Assembly (NCBI GenBank): GCA_020722945.1
Contig: DYJV01000014.1
Coordinates: 19,493-41,818 of the forward strand
Length of the DNA stretch: 22,326 bases
Direction of reading: 5' to 3'
Origin: Candidatus Methylomirabilis sp.
GTDB lineage: Bacteria > DYJV01
The notes under the pieces were generated by a model. That model saw only the letters and a program-made list of their open reading frames with translations, was not told the origin of the DNA and did no database searches. A program made the position numbers and the translations under genes. Positions 2,683 through 7,729 of this stretch are shown here, in pieces. Position 1 is the first letter of the stretch; each line of letters opens with the position of its first letter.

Positions 2683-3006
2683 ATGTCTGATTCATCAGAA
2701 ATTTTACTTCAAGGTTCACTGACTATAGAAACATCAAAAGATATATATGAGCAAATCAGAAAAGCTTTATTAGAAAATGACTCTGTTCAGGTAAAGTTTG
2801 GAAATATAGACAAGATAGATGTAACTTTCCTGCAGAATATCTGTGTAAATCACAAAATTGCTCAAGAAAATGATAAAAAATTACTTATCAATGGCACTCT
2901 ACCCAAAAAAATAAATGATTTTATAATATTTTCAGGATACAAGACATCATTAGAAAGTTGCAATTCCAATGAATGTTTTTTCAAGGAGGTTCTCACCAAT
3001 GAGTAA
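2683..3006 (+). CDS. STAS-domain protein of a chemosensory operon
   Basis: This 107-residue protein is a single STAS (anti-sigma factor antagonist-like) domain. It has an N-terminal strand with GSLTIETSKDIYEQIRKAL, a core strand VQVKFGNIDKID, then the diagnostic loop-helix DVTFLQNI at 46-53. SpoIIAA has its phosphorylatable serine directly after the aspartate (D-S-S-G-L); here that position is V47, followed by T48, so classical serine phosphorylation is unlikely unless T48 serves. Similar STAS proteins sit in chemotaxis operons of Geobacter-like bacteria, function unclear. A strong AAGGAG site (2672-2677) precedes the ATG. Its last eight bases overlap cheY, so the two are probably translationally coupled. 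It may act by protein-protein switching with CheA, CheY or the tandem-hairpin protein. Confidence 0.85.
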   Translation: MSDSSEILLQGSLTIETSKDIYEQIRKALLENDSVQVKFGNIDKIDVTFLQNICVNHKIAQENDKKLLINGTLPKKINDFIIFSGYKTSLESCNSNECFFKEVLTNE

Positions 3007-3361
3007 AATTATAATGACTGTTGACGATGCTGCAAGTGTCAGACAAATGGTTGCTTTTACTCTCAAACAATCGGGCTACAACGTAATTGAAGCAGTCGAC
3101 GGTAAGGATGCAATTGCCAAGTTAAAAGACAAAATTGATATGATAATTACTGATCTGAATATGCCAAATATGGATGGAATATCTCTTATCAAGGAGGTAA
3201 GAAAATTACCTACATACAAATTTGTCCCAATAGTAATGTTGACTACCGAATCTCAAGATAGTAAAAAGCAGGAGGGGAAATCTGCTGGTGCTTCAGGTTG
3301 GATTGTCAAACCTTTTAAACCTGATCAACTTTTAAGTGTTGTTAAAAAACTTGTTGGATAA
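2999..3361 (+). CDS. cheY: Chemotaxis response regulator CheY
   Basis: This is a single receiver domain of 120 residues, the normal CheY length. All phosphotransfer residues are present: acidic pair D9/D10, phospho-acceptor D52 in ITDLNMPNMDG, T82/T83 on the switch strand, and K104 in VKPF. A tryptophan (W101) precedes the lysine near the aromatic switch position. The start is ATG2999, inside the end of the STAS gene, because a textbook AAGGAGGT lies at 2983-2990, eight bases upstream; an in-frame ATG at 2969 would add ten residues without similarity to CheY. CheA, thirteen bases downstream, is the expected phosphodonor. Its output could be the flagellar switch or a non-motility partner; the window contains no flagellar gene to decide this. 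Confidence 0.95.
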   Translation: MSKIIMTVDDAASVRQMVAFTLKQSGYNVIEAVDGKDAIAKLKDKIDMIITDLNMPNMDGISLIKEVRKLPTYKFVPIVMLTTESQDSKKQEGKSAGASGWIVKPFKPDQLLSVVKKLVG

Positions 3362-3373
3362 TGGAGTATTAAC

Positions 3374-5494
3374 ATGAGCGGAATAGATGAAGGGTTATTA
3401 AAAGTATTCCTTGAAGAGGTAGATGAGCTTACTACTGATCTTGAAGAAGCTTTAATGGAGCTTGATGACAATAGGGAGGATACTGACCTTATAAACAGAA
3501 TATTTAGATCACTACATACCATAAAGGGTTCATCGGGTATGTATGGTTTTGATAATTTATCAAAATTTTTACACAATATAGAGACAATTTATGACAAAAT
3601 AAGAAATGCAGAGTTAAAGGTAAATAAAAATCTAATAGATATTACGCTCAAAGCAAAAGATTTTGTCAGAGAGCTGGTCTCTAACAATGACCAATACGAT
3701 CAGGGTAAATTCAATAATATTATTCAATCCTTCAAAAGTTTTGCAGGAGAAGAGGATACCCCTAAATCTGAAAAACCTAAAAATATAGATTCTGCTGTTA
3801 AAGAAAATAAAGAATCCCCTAAAAATATATTTAGAATAAGATTCAAACCATCTCAAAATATATTTTTTACTGGCACAAATCCGATTAGTCTTATAGATGA
3901 GCTGAAACATTTAGGTGAATCTTATATTTTTGCATACAACAAAGATTTACCATCGCCAGAGTATTTTGATCCTGAAAAGTGTTATATTTATTGGGATATA
4001 CTTTTACTAACCGATAAAAAGATTAATGACATCAAAGATGTTTTTATATTTGTTGAGGATGAATCTGATATCAAGATAGATCTGATTGAAGATGAATCAG
4101 AAATTCCCGATTTTTCTGATGCTGATACAAGGAAACTGGGTGAGATACTTGTAGAAAAAGGTGATATCACCTATGATGACCTCAATAGCATATTTTCATA
4201 CAAAAAGAAGATAGGTGAAGAGCTTATTGAGAAAGGTTTGGTCAGTGGAAGTAATATCAAATCAGCACTACTTGAGCAGGAGTTAGTAAAGAAGCAGAAA
4301 GAGATCAAAAAGGAGACATTGACAACATCGAGTGTCAGAGTATCCTCTGATAAACTTGACAAACTTGTAGATCTTGTAGGTGAGCTTGTTATTGCACAAA
4401 CCAGACTTGAGCAGCTTGCAAACAATTTAGGCAATTCAAAACTTAACAATATAACAGAAGAGATTGAAAGGCTTAGTCTTGACCTCAGGCAAACCACACT
4501 TGGGATACGCATGGTTCAGATAGGTAGTTCTTTCGGCAAATTTAGAAGAATAGTCCGAGATCTTTCAAGCGAAATGGGGAAAAAAGTAGAGTTTATCACA
4601 ATAGGAGAAGAGACTGAGCTTGACAAAACTGTAATAGAGAAATTAAACAATCCATTAGTTCACATATTGAGAAACAGCATCGATCATGGAATAGAACCCC
4701 CTGAAGATCGTATTTCAAAAGGTAAGAGTGAAAAGGGTAAAGTTATCCTAAAAGCGGAGCATTCAGGTGGAAATGTTATTATTACAATATCTGATGATGG
4801 AAAAGGGATAAATGTTGATAAAGTAATCGAAAAAGCAGAAAAGCTAAATCTCATATCTACTAAAAATATATCTAAAGATGAAGCATTATACCTTATTTTT
4901 CACCCCGGATTGAGCACTGCTGAAAAAATTACTAATGTTTCAGGAAGAGGCGTTGGTATGGATGTTGTCCGTCAAGATATCTCATCTCTTCGAGGAGAAG
5001 TTAAAATATCGAGTGAACAGGGAAAAGGGACATCTATCAAAATAATACTCCCTCTTACACTTGCAATTATAGAGGGACTAATTTTCAAAATAAAGGATAA
5101 CAGCTTTATTATACCTTTATCTTTTATAAATGAATGTATAGAGTATAGAAGAGTGGAGTATCTCAACAAATACAAAGGTAATTTTGTTGACATTAGAGGG
5201 AAATTAATACCTTTTGTAGTATTTAGAGATTATTTTAAGATTCAAGGAGAGAGACCAGATATAGAGCAGATAATCATAGTCAGCCTTGGGGATGAAATTA
5301 TCGGTCTTGCTGTTGATGAAATTATCGGTCAGCAGCAAATAGTAATAAAAAATCTTGGCTCAATCTTTAAAAACATAAGAGCAATCTCTGGTGCTGCTAT
5401 CCAAGGTGATGGAACAATGGCACTAATAGTAGATATTTCAGGTTTAATAAGTGAAGTAAAAAGTCTAAATATGTTGGATGAAACAGTTTCTTAA
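3374..5494 (+). CDS. cheA: Chemotaxis histidine kinase CheA with inserted MshEN-like repeats
   Basis: This 706-residue kinase phosphorylates CheY. An N-terminal Hpt domain carries the phospho-histidine H48 in LHTIKGSSG. Residues about 152-240 form a P2-like partner-binding domain. Residues about 254-303 are an unusual pair of 25-residue repeats: KLGEILVEKGDIT and KIGEELIEKGLVS begin the two units. The dimerisation helices (about 320-385, DKLDKLVDLVGELVIAQTRLEQL) are followed by the ATPase domain with N box (HILRNSIDHG, N434/H438), G1 (DDGKGI, 474-479) and G2 (GRGVGMDVV, 524-532). A CheW-like P5 domain occupies about 560-690. All catalytic motifs look intact. TGGAG lies seven bases before ATG3374. 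The repeats resemble MshEN/T2SSE N-terminal folds, a family with c-di-GMP-binding members; the diguanylate cyclase at the end of this operon makes that notable, but binding is inferred. Confidence 0.95.
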   Translation: MSGIDEGLLKVFLEEVDELTTDLEEALMELDDNREDTDLINRIFRSLHTIKGSSGMYGFDNLSKFLHNIETIYDKIRNAELKVNKNLIDITLKAKDFVRELVSNNDQYDQGKFNNIIQSFKSFAGEEDTPKSEKPKNIDSAVKENKESPKNIFRIRFKPSQNIFFTGTNPISLIDELKHLGESYIFAYNKDLPSPEYFDPEKCYIYWDILLLTDKKINDIKDVFIFVEDESDIKIDLIEDESEIPDFSDADTRKLGEILVEKGDITYDDLNSIFSYKKKIGEELIEKGLVSGSNIKSALLEQELVKKQKEIKKETLTTSSVRVSSDKLDKLVDLVGELVIAQTRLEQLANNLGNSKLNNITEEIERLSLDLRQTTLGIRMVQIGSSFGKFRRIVRDLSSEMGKKVEFITIGEETELDKTVIEKLNNPLVHILRNSIDHGIEPPEDRISKGKSEKGKVILKAEHSGGNVIITISDDGKGINVDKVIEKAEKLNLISTKNISKDEALYLIFHPGLSTAEKITNVSGRGVGMDVVRQDISSLRGEVKISSEQGKGTSIKIILPLTLAIIEGLIFKIKDNSFIIPLSFINECIEYRRVEYLNKYKGNFVDIRGKLIPFVVFRDYFKIQGERPDIEQIIIVSLGDEIIGLAVDEIIGQQQIVIKNLGSIFKNIRAISGAAIQGDGTMALIVDISGLISEVKSLNMLDETVS

Positions 5495-5512: not shown

Positions 5513-6022
5513 ATGGAAATAGCAAATCAATATTTATCATTTTTATTGGATAATGAACTTTACGGATTTAACATCTCCTCAATAAGGGAAGTATTGGAGT
5601 ATGAGCAGGTAACAAAAGTTCCTGGAGCAGTTGAAAGTATTCTTGGTATCATAAATGTTAGAGGGCATGTTGTTCCTGTGACAGATTTGAGAAAGAAGCT
5701 CAATATTGGTGAAGTAAAGATATCTTTGAATACATGTATCATCATTTCAGAGATAGAGAGAAACAATGAGAAGGTTACAATGGGAGTTATGGTGGATGCA
5801 GTTCAGGAAGTAATTGAGATTGACAATGACAATATAGAATCCGCACCAACAATAGGAAGCAGAATAAATACAAAGTTTATAAATGGAATAGGTAAGATTA
5901 ATGATAAATTTATAGTTCTTCTTGATGTAAAAGAGATATTCTCTTTTGAAGAGCTTGAAAAGATAAATGAGGTCTCTAAAGTATCAAAAGAGAATCTTAA
6001 TCTAATGGAGCAAGCTGTTTAA
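5513..6022 (+). CDS. cheW: Chemotaxis coupling protein CheW
   Basis: This 169-residue protein is a single CheW SH3-like domain that bridges receptors and the P5 domain of CheA. Typical features are the opening YLSFLLDNELYGFNISSIREVLE, the central block VESILGIINVRGHVVPVTDLRKKL with the conserved N-x-R-G, the strand GVMVDAVQEVIEI, and the late segment FINGIGKINDKFIVLLDVKEIF. It extends about 15-20 residues past the usual end with a charged tail. A strong AGGAGG precedes the ATG by about seven bases, and the gene begins 18 bases after cheA. The partner is presumably the neighbouring CheA together with the tandem-hairpin protein and/or the membrane receptor at 18056-21079. Confidence 0.95.
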   Translation: MEIANQYLSFLLDNELYGFNISSIREVLEYEQVTKVPGAVESILGIINVRGHVVPVTDLRKKLNIGEVKISLNTCIIISEIERNNEKVTMGVMVDAVQEVIEIDNDNIESAPTIGSRINTKFINGIGKINDKFIVLLDVKEIFSFEELEKINEVSKVSKENLNLMEQAV

Positions 6023-6061: not shown

Positions 6062-7729
6062 ATGGTAAAAGTAGGTATTTTATCAAACACTAAAATTACA
6101 GCTAATCTCATAGAAGGGATGTTATTAGGATTTGGTGAAATAGTCAAATTTTCTAACAGAGAGGAGTTGTATCAATATCTACTCTCCGATTCTCTCAATC
6201 TCCTTCTCATCGATAGAGTTGTAGATAATTTTACATCGAAAGAAATTATCTCAAAAATAGATAAGTTACCGCCTACTATCCTTATTATTTCTGATGATTA
6301 CAACAAAGATATTGATGGAGATAATTACTCATTTGTTCTAAAAAGACCTTTCTCTCAGGAGGAGATGAGGGATATTATCTCATTTCTTGTTTTTAAGGAG
6401 TATCCAGATGATCCCCAAAACATAAACATACTAATTGTTGATGATTCAAAGATATTGAGGGATATACTAAAATCAAAGATAGAATTTTTAGGATATAACT
6501 ATTTAGAAGCCTCAAATGGTGAGGAAGCTCTTAATTTACTTACCAAAAATCCTTTGACACCCTCTCTCATAATTACAGATCAAGAGATGCCCGGCATATC
6601 AGGAATCCAACTTTCAAAAAGGATAAGAGATCTCGATAAAAGTAAAAATATTCCTATTTTGATGATTACATCACTATACGATGATATGAAGCTCAGAAAT
6701 GAAGCGTTTTCAGCAGGGATAAACCAAATTATACCAAAACCTTTTGAAGATTCCCTCATAGAGAGTAGCATAAAACAATTTTTTCCAAGAAATGGCCAAA
6801 CTGACCAATCTTCCAAAATCGCACTATTAGATGATTCCAATTCAAGGCGTAAAGCAATGGAGAGCATTATAAGGGGTCATGGCTACCATATATTATCTAC
6901 TACAAGCACGGACAAATTTATCCAATTTGTAAAGAACAACCCATTTGATCTCCTTATAATAGATTTTATACTTGAAAATACGACAGGAATAGAGCTTATA
7001 CAAGAGTTAAGAAACAACTTATCTATATCTGCACCGATACTTATATACACTGCTTTTGATAATATCAATATGAGAAAGAAACTTTCAGAAATTTTTAATG
7101 CTGGCGGTAATGACTACTTACTTGCTCCTTTTGAAATTGAAGAACTTATATTCAAAGTAAAAACATGGCTCAACTACTTCAAATTACTAAAAGAACATAA
7201 AAGCCGTGAATCTCAGCTCCAAAAAATTTTAACATACGATATGCTTACAAATGTTTACAACAGATTCAACATTCTAAAAAGGGGTGAAGAGTATTTTGCT
7301 CTTTCAAAAAGAAAAGGTTATCCACTTTCTCTGCTTTACATGGATATAGATCATTTTAAAAGAGTCAATGACACTTATGGTCATAATTTTGGAGATATAG
7401 TTTTAAAAAAATTCTCATCTGTTGTGAATACTGGAATTCGTAAAGAGGATGTCTTCGGACGGGTTGGAGGTGAAGAGTTTATTGCAATACTCCCCTACAC
7501 TTCAGAGAAAGAGGCATCAATCGTTGCAGAAAAAATCAGAGATATGGTCTCCAAAATAACTTTTGAAGAGCATAATGAGATTAAAGATTTAAAGATAACT
7601 ACATCTATCGGAGTATCTGTATTCAGTAATCAAAAAAATTTCTCAACTTTTGATGATATTATTTCAAAAGCTGACAAAGCTCTCTATAAAGCTAAAACTG
7701 CCGGTAGAAATAAAGTTGTTTTTTATTAA
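6062..7729 (+). CDS. Triple-receiver diguanylate cyclase (REC-REC-REC-GGDEF)
   Basis: This 555-residue response regulator synthesises cyclic di-GMP. REC1 (about 1-112) keeps a possible acceptor D51 and K94 but lacks the N-terminal acidic pair, so it looks degenerate. REC2 (about 121-240) is complete: D127/D128, D173, T203, K226 in PKPF. REC3 (about 252-370) has D257/D258, D301 and T330, but the conserved lysine is alanine (A355 in LLAPF). The GGDEF domain (about 385-555) has the active site GGEEF at 469-473, metal-binding D428 in MDIDHF, and an inhibitory I-site RKED at 460-463, five residues before GGEEF. The layout resembles PleD with one extra receiver. It follows cheW by 39 bases with only a weak ribosome site and is probably controlled by CheA phosphotransfer to REC2. 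Confidence 0.93.
   Translation: MVKVGILSNTKITANLIEGMLLGFGEIVKFSNREELYQYLLSDSLNLLLIDRVVDNFTSKEIISKIDKLPPTILIISDDYNKDIDGDNYSFVLKRPFSQEEMRDIISFLVFKEYPDDPQNINILIVDDSKILRDILKSKIEFLGYNYLEASNGEEALNLLTKNPLTPSLIITDQEMPGISGIQLSKRIRDLDKSKNIPILMITSLYDDMKLRNEAFSAGINQIIPKPFEDSLIESSIKQFFPRNGQTDQSSKIALLDDSNSRRKAMESIIRGHGYHILSTTSTDKFIQFVKNNPFDLLIIDFILENTTGIELIQELRNNLSISAPILIYTAFDNINMRKKLSEIFNAGGNDYLLAPFEIEELIFKVKTWLNYFKLLKEHKSRESQLQKILTYDMLTNVYNRFNILKRGEEYFALSKRKGYPLSLLYMDIDHFKRVNDTYGHNFGDIVLKKFSSVVNTGIRKEDVFGRVGGEEFIAILPYTSEKEASIVAEKIRDMVSKITFEEHNEIKDLKITTSIGVSVFSNQKNFSTFDDIISKADKALYKAKTAGRNKVVFY

Follow-up and report, generated by a model that had tools for sequence, protein, structure and literature searches.

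The chemotaxis kinase CheA encoded in the window (the whole stretch of DNA analyzed, 22,326 nucleotides) carries, between its P2-like domain and its P3 dimerisation domain, a pair of short units that is almost certainly a homologous domain of the MshEN_N type. Judged from its sequence and predicted structure, this compact domain may act as a c-di-GMP (cyclic-dinucleotide) input to the kinase, a reading to which we assign a probability of roughly 0.5. The likeness of the repeats to the N-terminal motif of MshEN/T2SSE proteins had been noticed in a first-pass annotation, and it is now backed as homology by sequence profiles and by the predicted fold.

The cheA gene (3374–5494, on the + strand, as are all the features of the window given below) encodes 706 amino acids. 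The Hpt, H-kinase_dim, HATPase_c and CheW domains of a CheA chemotaxis kinase are all present over the Pfam cut-offs: the P1 Hpt domain lies at residues 8–93 (3395–3652; PF01627, E 1.5e-15), the P3 domain at residues 319–375 (4328–4498; PF02895, E 1.3e-14), the P4 ATPase domain at residues 427–562 (4652–5059; PF02518, E 1.2e-17) and the P5 CheW-like domain at residues 567–694 (5072–5455; PF01584, E 1.2e-26). A P2-like alpha/beta domain is predicted by AlphaFold2 at about residues 150–240 (3821–4093), with a mean pLDDT above 90 there. Its top Foldseek rows are mostly ferredoxin-like alpha/beta proteins, and the Pfam P2/CheY-binding models match weakly in a few CheA homologues. The MshEN-like pair is found between P2 and P3.

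The translation of 4133–4282 is KLGEILVEKGDITYDDLNSIFSYK-K-KIGEELIEKGLVSGSNIKSALLEQ-E, which corresponds to CheA residues 254–303; thus, the first-pass annotation had placed the pair exactly. The two matching units described there are real, since they align without gaps (8 of 25 positions identical) with a Smith-Waterman score of 42 that none of 5000 shuffles reached. The unit length of 25 residues proposed for them is refined: unit 1 (residues 254–277; 4133–4204) and unit 2 (residues 279–302; 4208–4279) are 24-residue motifs, joined by a single Lys (Lys278; 4205–4207) that gives a unit-start period of 25, while the spacer of canonical MshEN is 5 residues long. Several positions are informative. 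Gly at position 3 is kept in both units (Gly256 and Gly281), and unit 2 ends in the canonical Gln at position 24 (Gln302). Unit 1, in contrast, departs from the canonical motif in its last residue, Lys277 instead of Gln, and in residue 21, Phe instead of Leu. Position 1 is Lys instead of Arg in both units (Lys254 and Lys279).

The relationship to MshEN was examined with several profiles. An HMM of the PilB/GspE-type MshEN, built without any CheA sequence, matches CheA residues 253–302 across 54 profile positions, scoring 26.0 bits with the whole protein and 28.7 bits with the segment; among 2000 shuffled versions of it, the highest score was 11.2 bits, and the reversed CheA protein gave no match to this HMM. 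The NCBIfam model NF053729, a c-di-GMP-binding motif related to MshE (53 positions; curated cut-off, 38 bits), matches residues 254–302 over its full length (1–53 of 53; E 2.8e-7), with scores of 30.2 bits for the whole protein and 32.4 bits for the fragment, both below the cut-off. The same model matches all of the 32 aligned CheA homologue regions, and homologues above the cut-off include L039 (40.5 bits), L064 (44.0), L017 (46.1), L007 (53.5) and L057 (59.2). When 24 CheA pairs were compared by hhalign with 21 MshEN sequences of PilB/GspE-type ATPases, the two groups aligned with P 99.0 and E 8.8e-18, and a four-column gap fell exactly at the spacer between the units. A search of PDB sequences with the CheA-pair profile retrieved PilF, MshE and PilB (E 1.4e-30 to 1.9e-5): all 14 matches with E < 1e-4 were MshEN proteins, and the next match had E 0.19.

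The comparison with the Pfam MshEN family (PF05157) that the first-pass annotation proposed as a check gave a divided answer, the hhalign comparison with the ATPase MshEN being positive and the Pfam model, which describes the whole domain with MshEN_C, showing no match in CheA. In the ATPases of the same genome, the NF053729 motif precedes the Pfam match, which begins just after it; the Pfam model therefore largely covers what follows the motif. Nothing convincing was found by Pfam-A in the pair region of CheA, and weak matches there to fumarase, nucleotidase and GCN5L1 were taken as chance.

The structure prediction is in line with the profiles. In the AlphaFold2 model of CheA residues 150–400, the confident alpha/beta P2-like domain is followed by four helices of the pair (residues 255–262, 267–273, 280–286 and 292–318), with moderate confidence (pLDDT about 70–85). 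The last of these (4247–4327; helix 143–169 in the numbering of the model, which starts at CheA residue 150) reaches P3, and helix 2 is predicted to stop before position 24. Because the Foldseek matches of this larger model were dominated by the P2-like domain, the pair alone was modeled separately; it again gave four helices, with a mean pLDDT of 73. With this model, the Xanthomonas PilB N-domain and MshE rank first in Foldseek (for MshE, rmsd 1.5 Å over 51 columns and TMq 0.60), and the individual E-values exceed 1, as the small size of the domain would lead one to expect. Among the VIA matches listed, the first eight are all MshEN/GSPII structures (Z 6.9–7.8), most of them with bound c-di-GMP, and the next, unrelated one has Z 5.3. 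Such Z values would be insufficient alone to establish an MshEN fold; together with the sequence evidence, they support the four-helix fold, which, on the ranking by Foldseek and VIA, is predicted with moderate confidence.

The pair is not confined to this CheA. In a sample across bacteria, the CheA dimerisation domain was found in 190 of 386 genomes, and a single match spanning both the pair and P3 was found in 43 of the 386, as counted from the match rows; the pair-bearing genomes thus make up 43 of the 190 CheA-bearing ones and represent about 40 families. Homologues sharing the P2-like domain are abundant in the phylum of genome G024; named ones come from MAGs of Desulfobacterales (L004) and Acidobacteria (L005). 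Of 56 non-redundant CheA pairs, 33 have their unit starts 25 residues apart (a one-residue spacer) and the remainder 26–35, whereas in the ATPase pairs the distance is 29 (a five-residue spacer) in 22 of 27 and 30–31 in the other 5. Gly3 is invariant in both units of the CheA pairs (56/56 each), as is the Gln24 of unit 2 (56/56), while the Gln24 of unit 1 is present in 42 and replaced by Lys in 8, Arg in 3, His in 2 and Thr in 1. The corresponding values in the ATPases are 25/27 (unit 1) and 21/27 (unit 2) for Gly3, and likewise 25/27 and 21/27 for Gln24; Gly3 in both units and the Gln24 of unit 2 are thus kept more strictly in the CheA pairs. The invariance of Gly3 is partly built in, because the profiles of the unit detector were made from units with Gly3; the Gln24 result is free of this kind of bias, although strongly degenerate pairs may have been missed. 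Taken together, the invariant Gly3 and unit-2 Gln24 favor retained binding across the CheA pairs. A different arrangement was seen in the CheA of L014 (977-aa frame): four consecutive MshEN-like units, i.e. two tandem pairs, precede P3, with spacers of 7, 13 and 7 residues.

Whether the copy in the window may bind c-di-GMP can be judged against the characterized MshEN proteins. In MshE and PilF, the backbone of Gly3 bonds the guanine, and Gln24 bonds the ribose and phosphate (PMC5013675, PMC11731258). The replacement of the RLG Arg by Lys in both units, to which the first-pass annotation had drawn attention, is correctly observed; as a weak point of the pair, it does not stand. PilF GSPII-B, in which Lys and Leu occupy these positions, has an affinity of 6 nM for c-di-GMP, and its K167L variant one of 2 nM (PMC11731258), so Lys254 and Lys279 are residues of a kind shown to substitute for Arg, and the idea that Lys in the RLG abolishes binding was rejected. 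Real concerns arise from the sequence elsewhere: the change of Gln24 to Lys and of Leu21 to Phe in unit 1, and the shortening of the spacer from 5 residues to 1. In GSPII-B, single Gln-to-Glu changes gave a KD of 0.46–0.95 µM and the double change abolished binding (PMC11731258); close to the phosphate, a Lys may do less damage than a Glu. In PilF GSPII-A, measurable binding needed both Gln positions to be restored (PMC12002112), and binding in MshEN reportedly benefits from a longer helix 2 (PMC5013675). On this balance, the odds that this CheA would bind c-di-GMP with a KD below about 10 µM appear even, and the CheA family as a whole probably binds c-di-GMP or a similar dinucleotide.

The strongest rival to a c-di-GMP input holds that the domain descends from MshEN but that this copy has lost ligand binding and now either holds P2 and P3 rigidly apart or mediates protein interactions there. 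The Lys at unit-1 position 24, the shortened spacer and the score below the NF053729 cut-off all agree with such a loss, for which degenerate precedents exist: GSPII-A is a well-folded non-binder (PMC12002112), and XpsE lost binding through changes of key residues (PMC5013675). Nevertheless, this copy retains Gly3 in both units, Gln24 in unit 2 and the hydrophobic residues used for stacking; a tolerant rule accepts 11 of its 12 key positions, compared with about 8 in GSPII-A by a manual count from the published text; and an invariant polar Gln ending unit 2 throughout the family is hard to explain by structure alone. We therefore regard this loss as a serious possibility, though a doubtful one. 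A second rival, that the compact pocket of the CheA family binds another ligand, such as 3′,3′-cGAMP or another nucleotide, is quite improbable: VcMshEN binds cGAMP weakly (PMC5013675) and an altered spacer could reshape the pocket, but the positions that contact both guanines are retained in both units. Finally, the likeness might be fortuitous, the motif being short and Pfam-A giving no convincing match; the region would then be a helical linker of low complexity in which two LGE..VEKG stretches happen to be alike. This reading, akin to the simple helical linker that the first-pass annotation had named as fatal to its proposal, is refuted by the shuffles (0 of 2000), the negative reversed sequence, the hhalign E-value, the conservation in 56 non-redundant CheAs and the predicted MshEN-like four-helix fold, and is thus extremely improbable.

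If the compact MshEN_N domain is indeed a c-di-GMP input, its action can be pictured as follows. The domain consists of the two 24-residue units with a one-residue joint instead of five and without the MshEN_C subdomain, and the ligand would be clamped between the units. The Gly3 backbone would contact the guanine, which would stack on Leu/Ile clusters, and the ribose-phosphate would be held by the unit-2 Gln24, here perhaps also by the unit-1 Lys24. A clamped ligand would fix helices 2 and 4, and the change would pass via helix 4, which leads to the dimerisation helices of P3. Since helix 4 leads straight into P3, the likely effect would be on how P1/P2 are placed relative to the P3-P4-P5 core, altering the access of P1/P2 to the kinase core. 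Ligand binding by CheA, its affinity and its effect on phosphorylation are all points that we infer, and that binding changes the kinase output appears slightly doubtful.

Known links between c-di-GMP and chemotaxis act via adaptors, receptors or the motor. Binding by this domain, if it occurs, would give c-di-GMP a direct action on the central kinase in a considerable minority of chemotaxis systems (43 of the 190 sampled CheA-bearing genomes), and the residues tabulated for the individual copies (Gly3, Gln24 and the spacer) show which of them merit testing first.

With MshEN_N as known from NF053729 and from PDB entries 5HTL and 8PDK (PilF GSPII-B), the CheA pair shares the two 24-residue RLGxx(L)(V)xxG(L)(V)xxxxLxxxLxxQ units, Gly3, the unit-2 Gln24, the predicted four-helix fold and a match over all 53 positions. 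It differs in its spacer (1 versus 5), the unit-1 Lys24, the missing MshEN_C, the long helix running into P3 and the score below the NF053729 cut-off. The MshEN-CheA fusion itself is not new and is widespread: in one sentence of the accessible part of their paper, Wang et al. (2016; PMC5013675) list CheA among the partners of MshEN. The MshEN-type motif in a CheA kinase is thus common to both studies; the motif in that part of the paper has a five-residue spacer, whereas the compact spacing and the residue pattern come from the present analysis. The one-residue spacing without MshEN_C and the family residue pattern seem to be undescribed in the accessible literature, and no published experimental test of a CheA-MshEN protein was found in the open-access literature. 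Two further comparisons concern other enzymes. The C-terminal MshEN of the glycosyltransferase NfrB (NF008411), which is activated by c-di-GMP, is a weak secondary match to CheA residues 243–308 (E 7.6e-4); it is an MshEN-type regulatory domain carried by a different enzyme, with other protein surroundings for the motif. In Myxococcus xanthus, SgmT (PMC3509222), in the accessible part of its description, is a precedent for a histidine kinase as a c-di-GMP receptor; it is an orphan hybrid kinase rather than a CheA, and the comparison made here is one of function.

In the window, cheA is the fourth gene in the order MCP-signal protein, STAS, CheY, CheA, CheW and receiver-GGDEF cyclase. The first encodes an MCP-signal-containing protein without an obvious sensor domain (857–2650; PF00015, E 5.5e-15), and the second a STAS-domain protein (2683–3006; STAS_2, E 4.3e-6, 27.2 bits, just under the cut-off of 29.2). 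The third, a CheY-like single receiver (2969–3361; PF00072, E 2e-27), overlaps the STAS gene by 38 bases as listed (2683–3361 for the two genes); the listed start may be too early, and the true one is probably a later ATG. CheW (5513–6022; PF01584, E 1.5e-34) and the diguanylate cyclase (6062–7729) follow. The latter has receiver domains (PF00072, E 3.2e-45; two Pfam stretches, with a third likely) and a GGDEF domain at residues 391–551 (PF00990, E 1.1e-43). Because a GGEEF signature and, five residues upstream of it, an RxxD-type inhibitory site (RKED) can be read from its sequence, this cyclase is probably active and product-inhibited.

The first-pass annotation had taken the cyclase in the cheA operon as a hint of c-di-GMP input. 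The gene is present, and as evidence for such an input it is weak: of 20 CheAs with the pair, 3 had a GGDEF gene at a distance of up to about 9 kb, as did 4 of 20 CheAs without it. The cyclase was accordingly rejected as a conserved partner of the pair-bearing CheA, its presence in the operon being a feature of this locus rather than of the family. The recurring partners in the 20 pair-bearing clusters are an MCP-like protein, STAS or CheY, MCP, CheW, CheR, CheD and CheB, and a homologue of the MCP-signal protein of the window lies near cheA in most of them. It is rather unlikely, though conceivable, that in a broad class of CheA the compact MshEN_N with the one-residue spacer lets c-di-GMP gate the kinase directly; here, such gating could complete a circuit, with CheA phosphorylating the co-operonic receiver-GGDEF cyclase and the c-di-GMP made by the cyclase feeding back on CheA.

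The genome to which the window belongs is rich in GGDEF genes (11 matches over the cut-off) and has a single PilZ match, a contrast that counts in favor of the proposed c-di-GMP input to CheA; MshEN motifs of its ATPases exceed the cut-off in two cases. Its second CheA (L103:5510-8605; 1031 aa, with two Hpt-like regions) has no MshEN-like pair before P3. Just downstream of this CheA, CheW and a DnaK-like gene, on contig C44, lies a gene (L103:10912-11835) for a protein of 307 aa whose N-terminal part is a J domain and whose C-terminal part holds an MshEN-like pair (NF053729, 32.4 bits, under the cut-off); from its sequence, it is possibly a c-di-GMP-linked DnaJ co-chaperone beside the chemotaxis cluster. 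A further weak MshEN-like pair (21.3 bits) was found in a truncated ORF at a contig end (L102:3-299).
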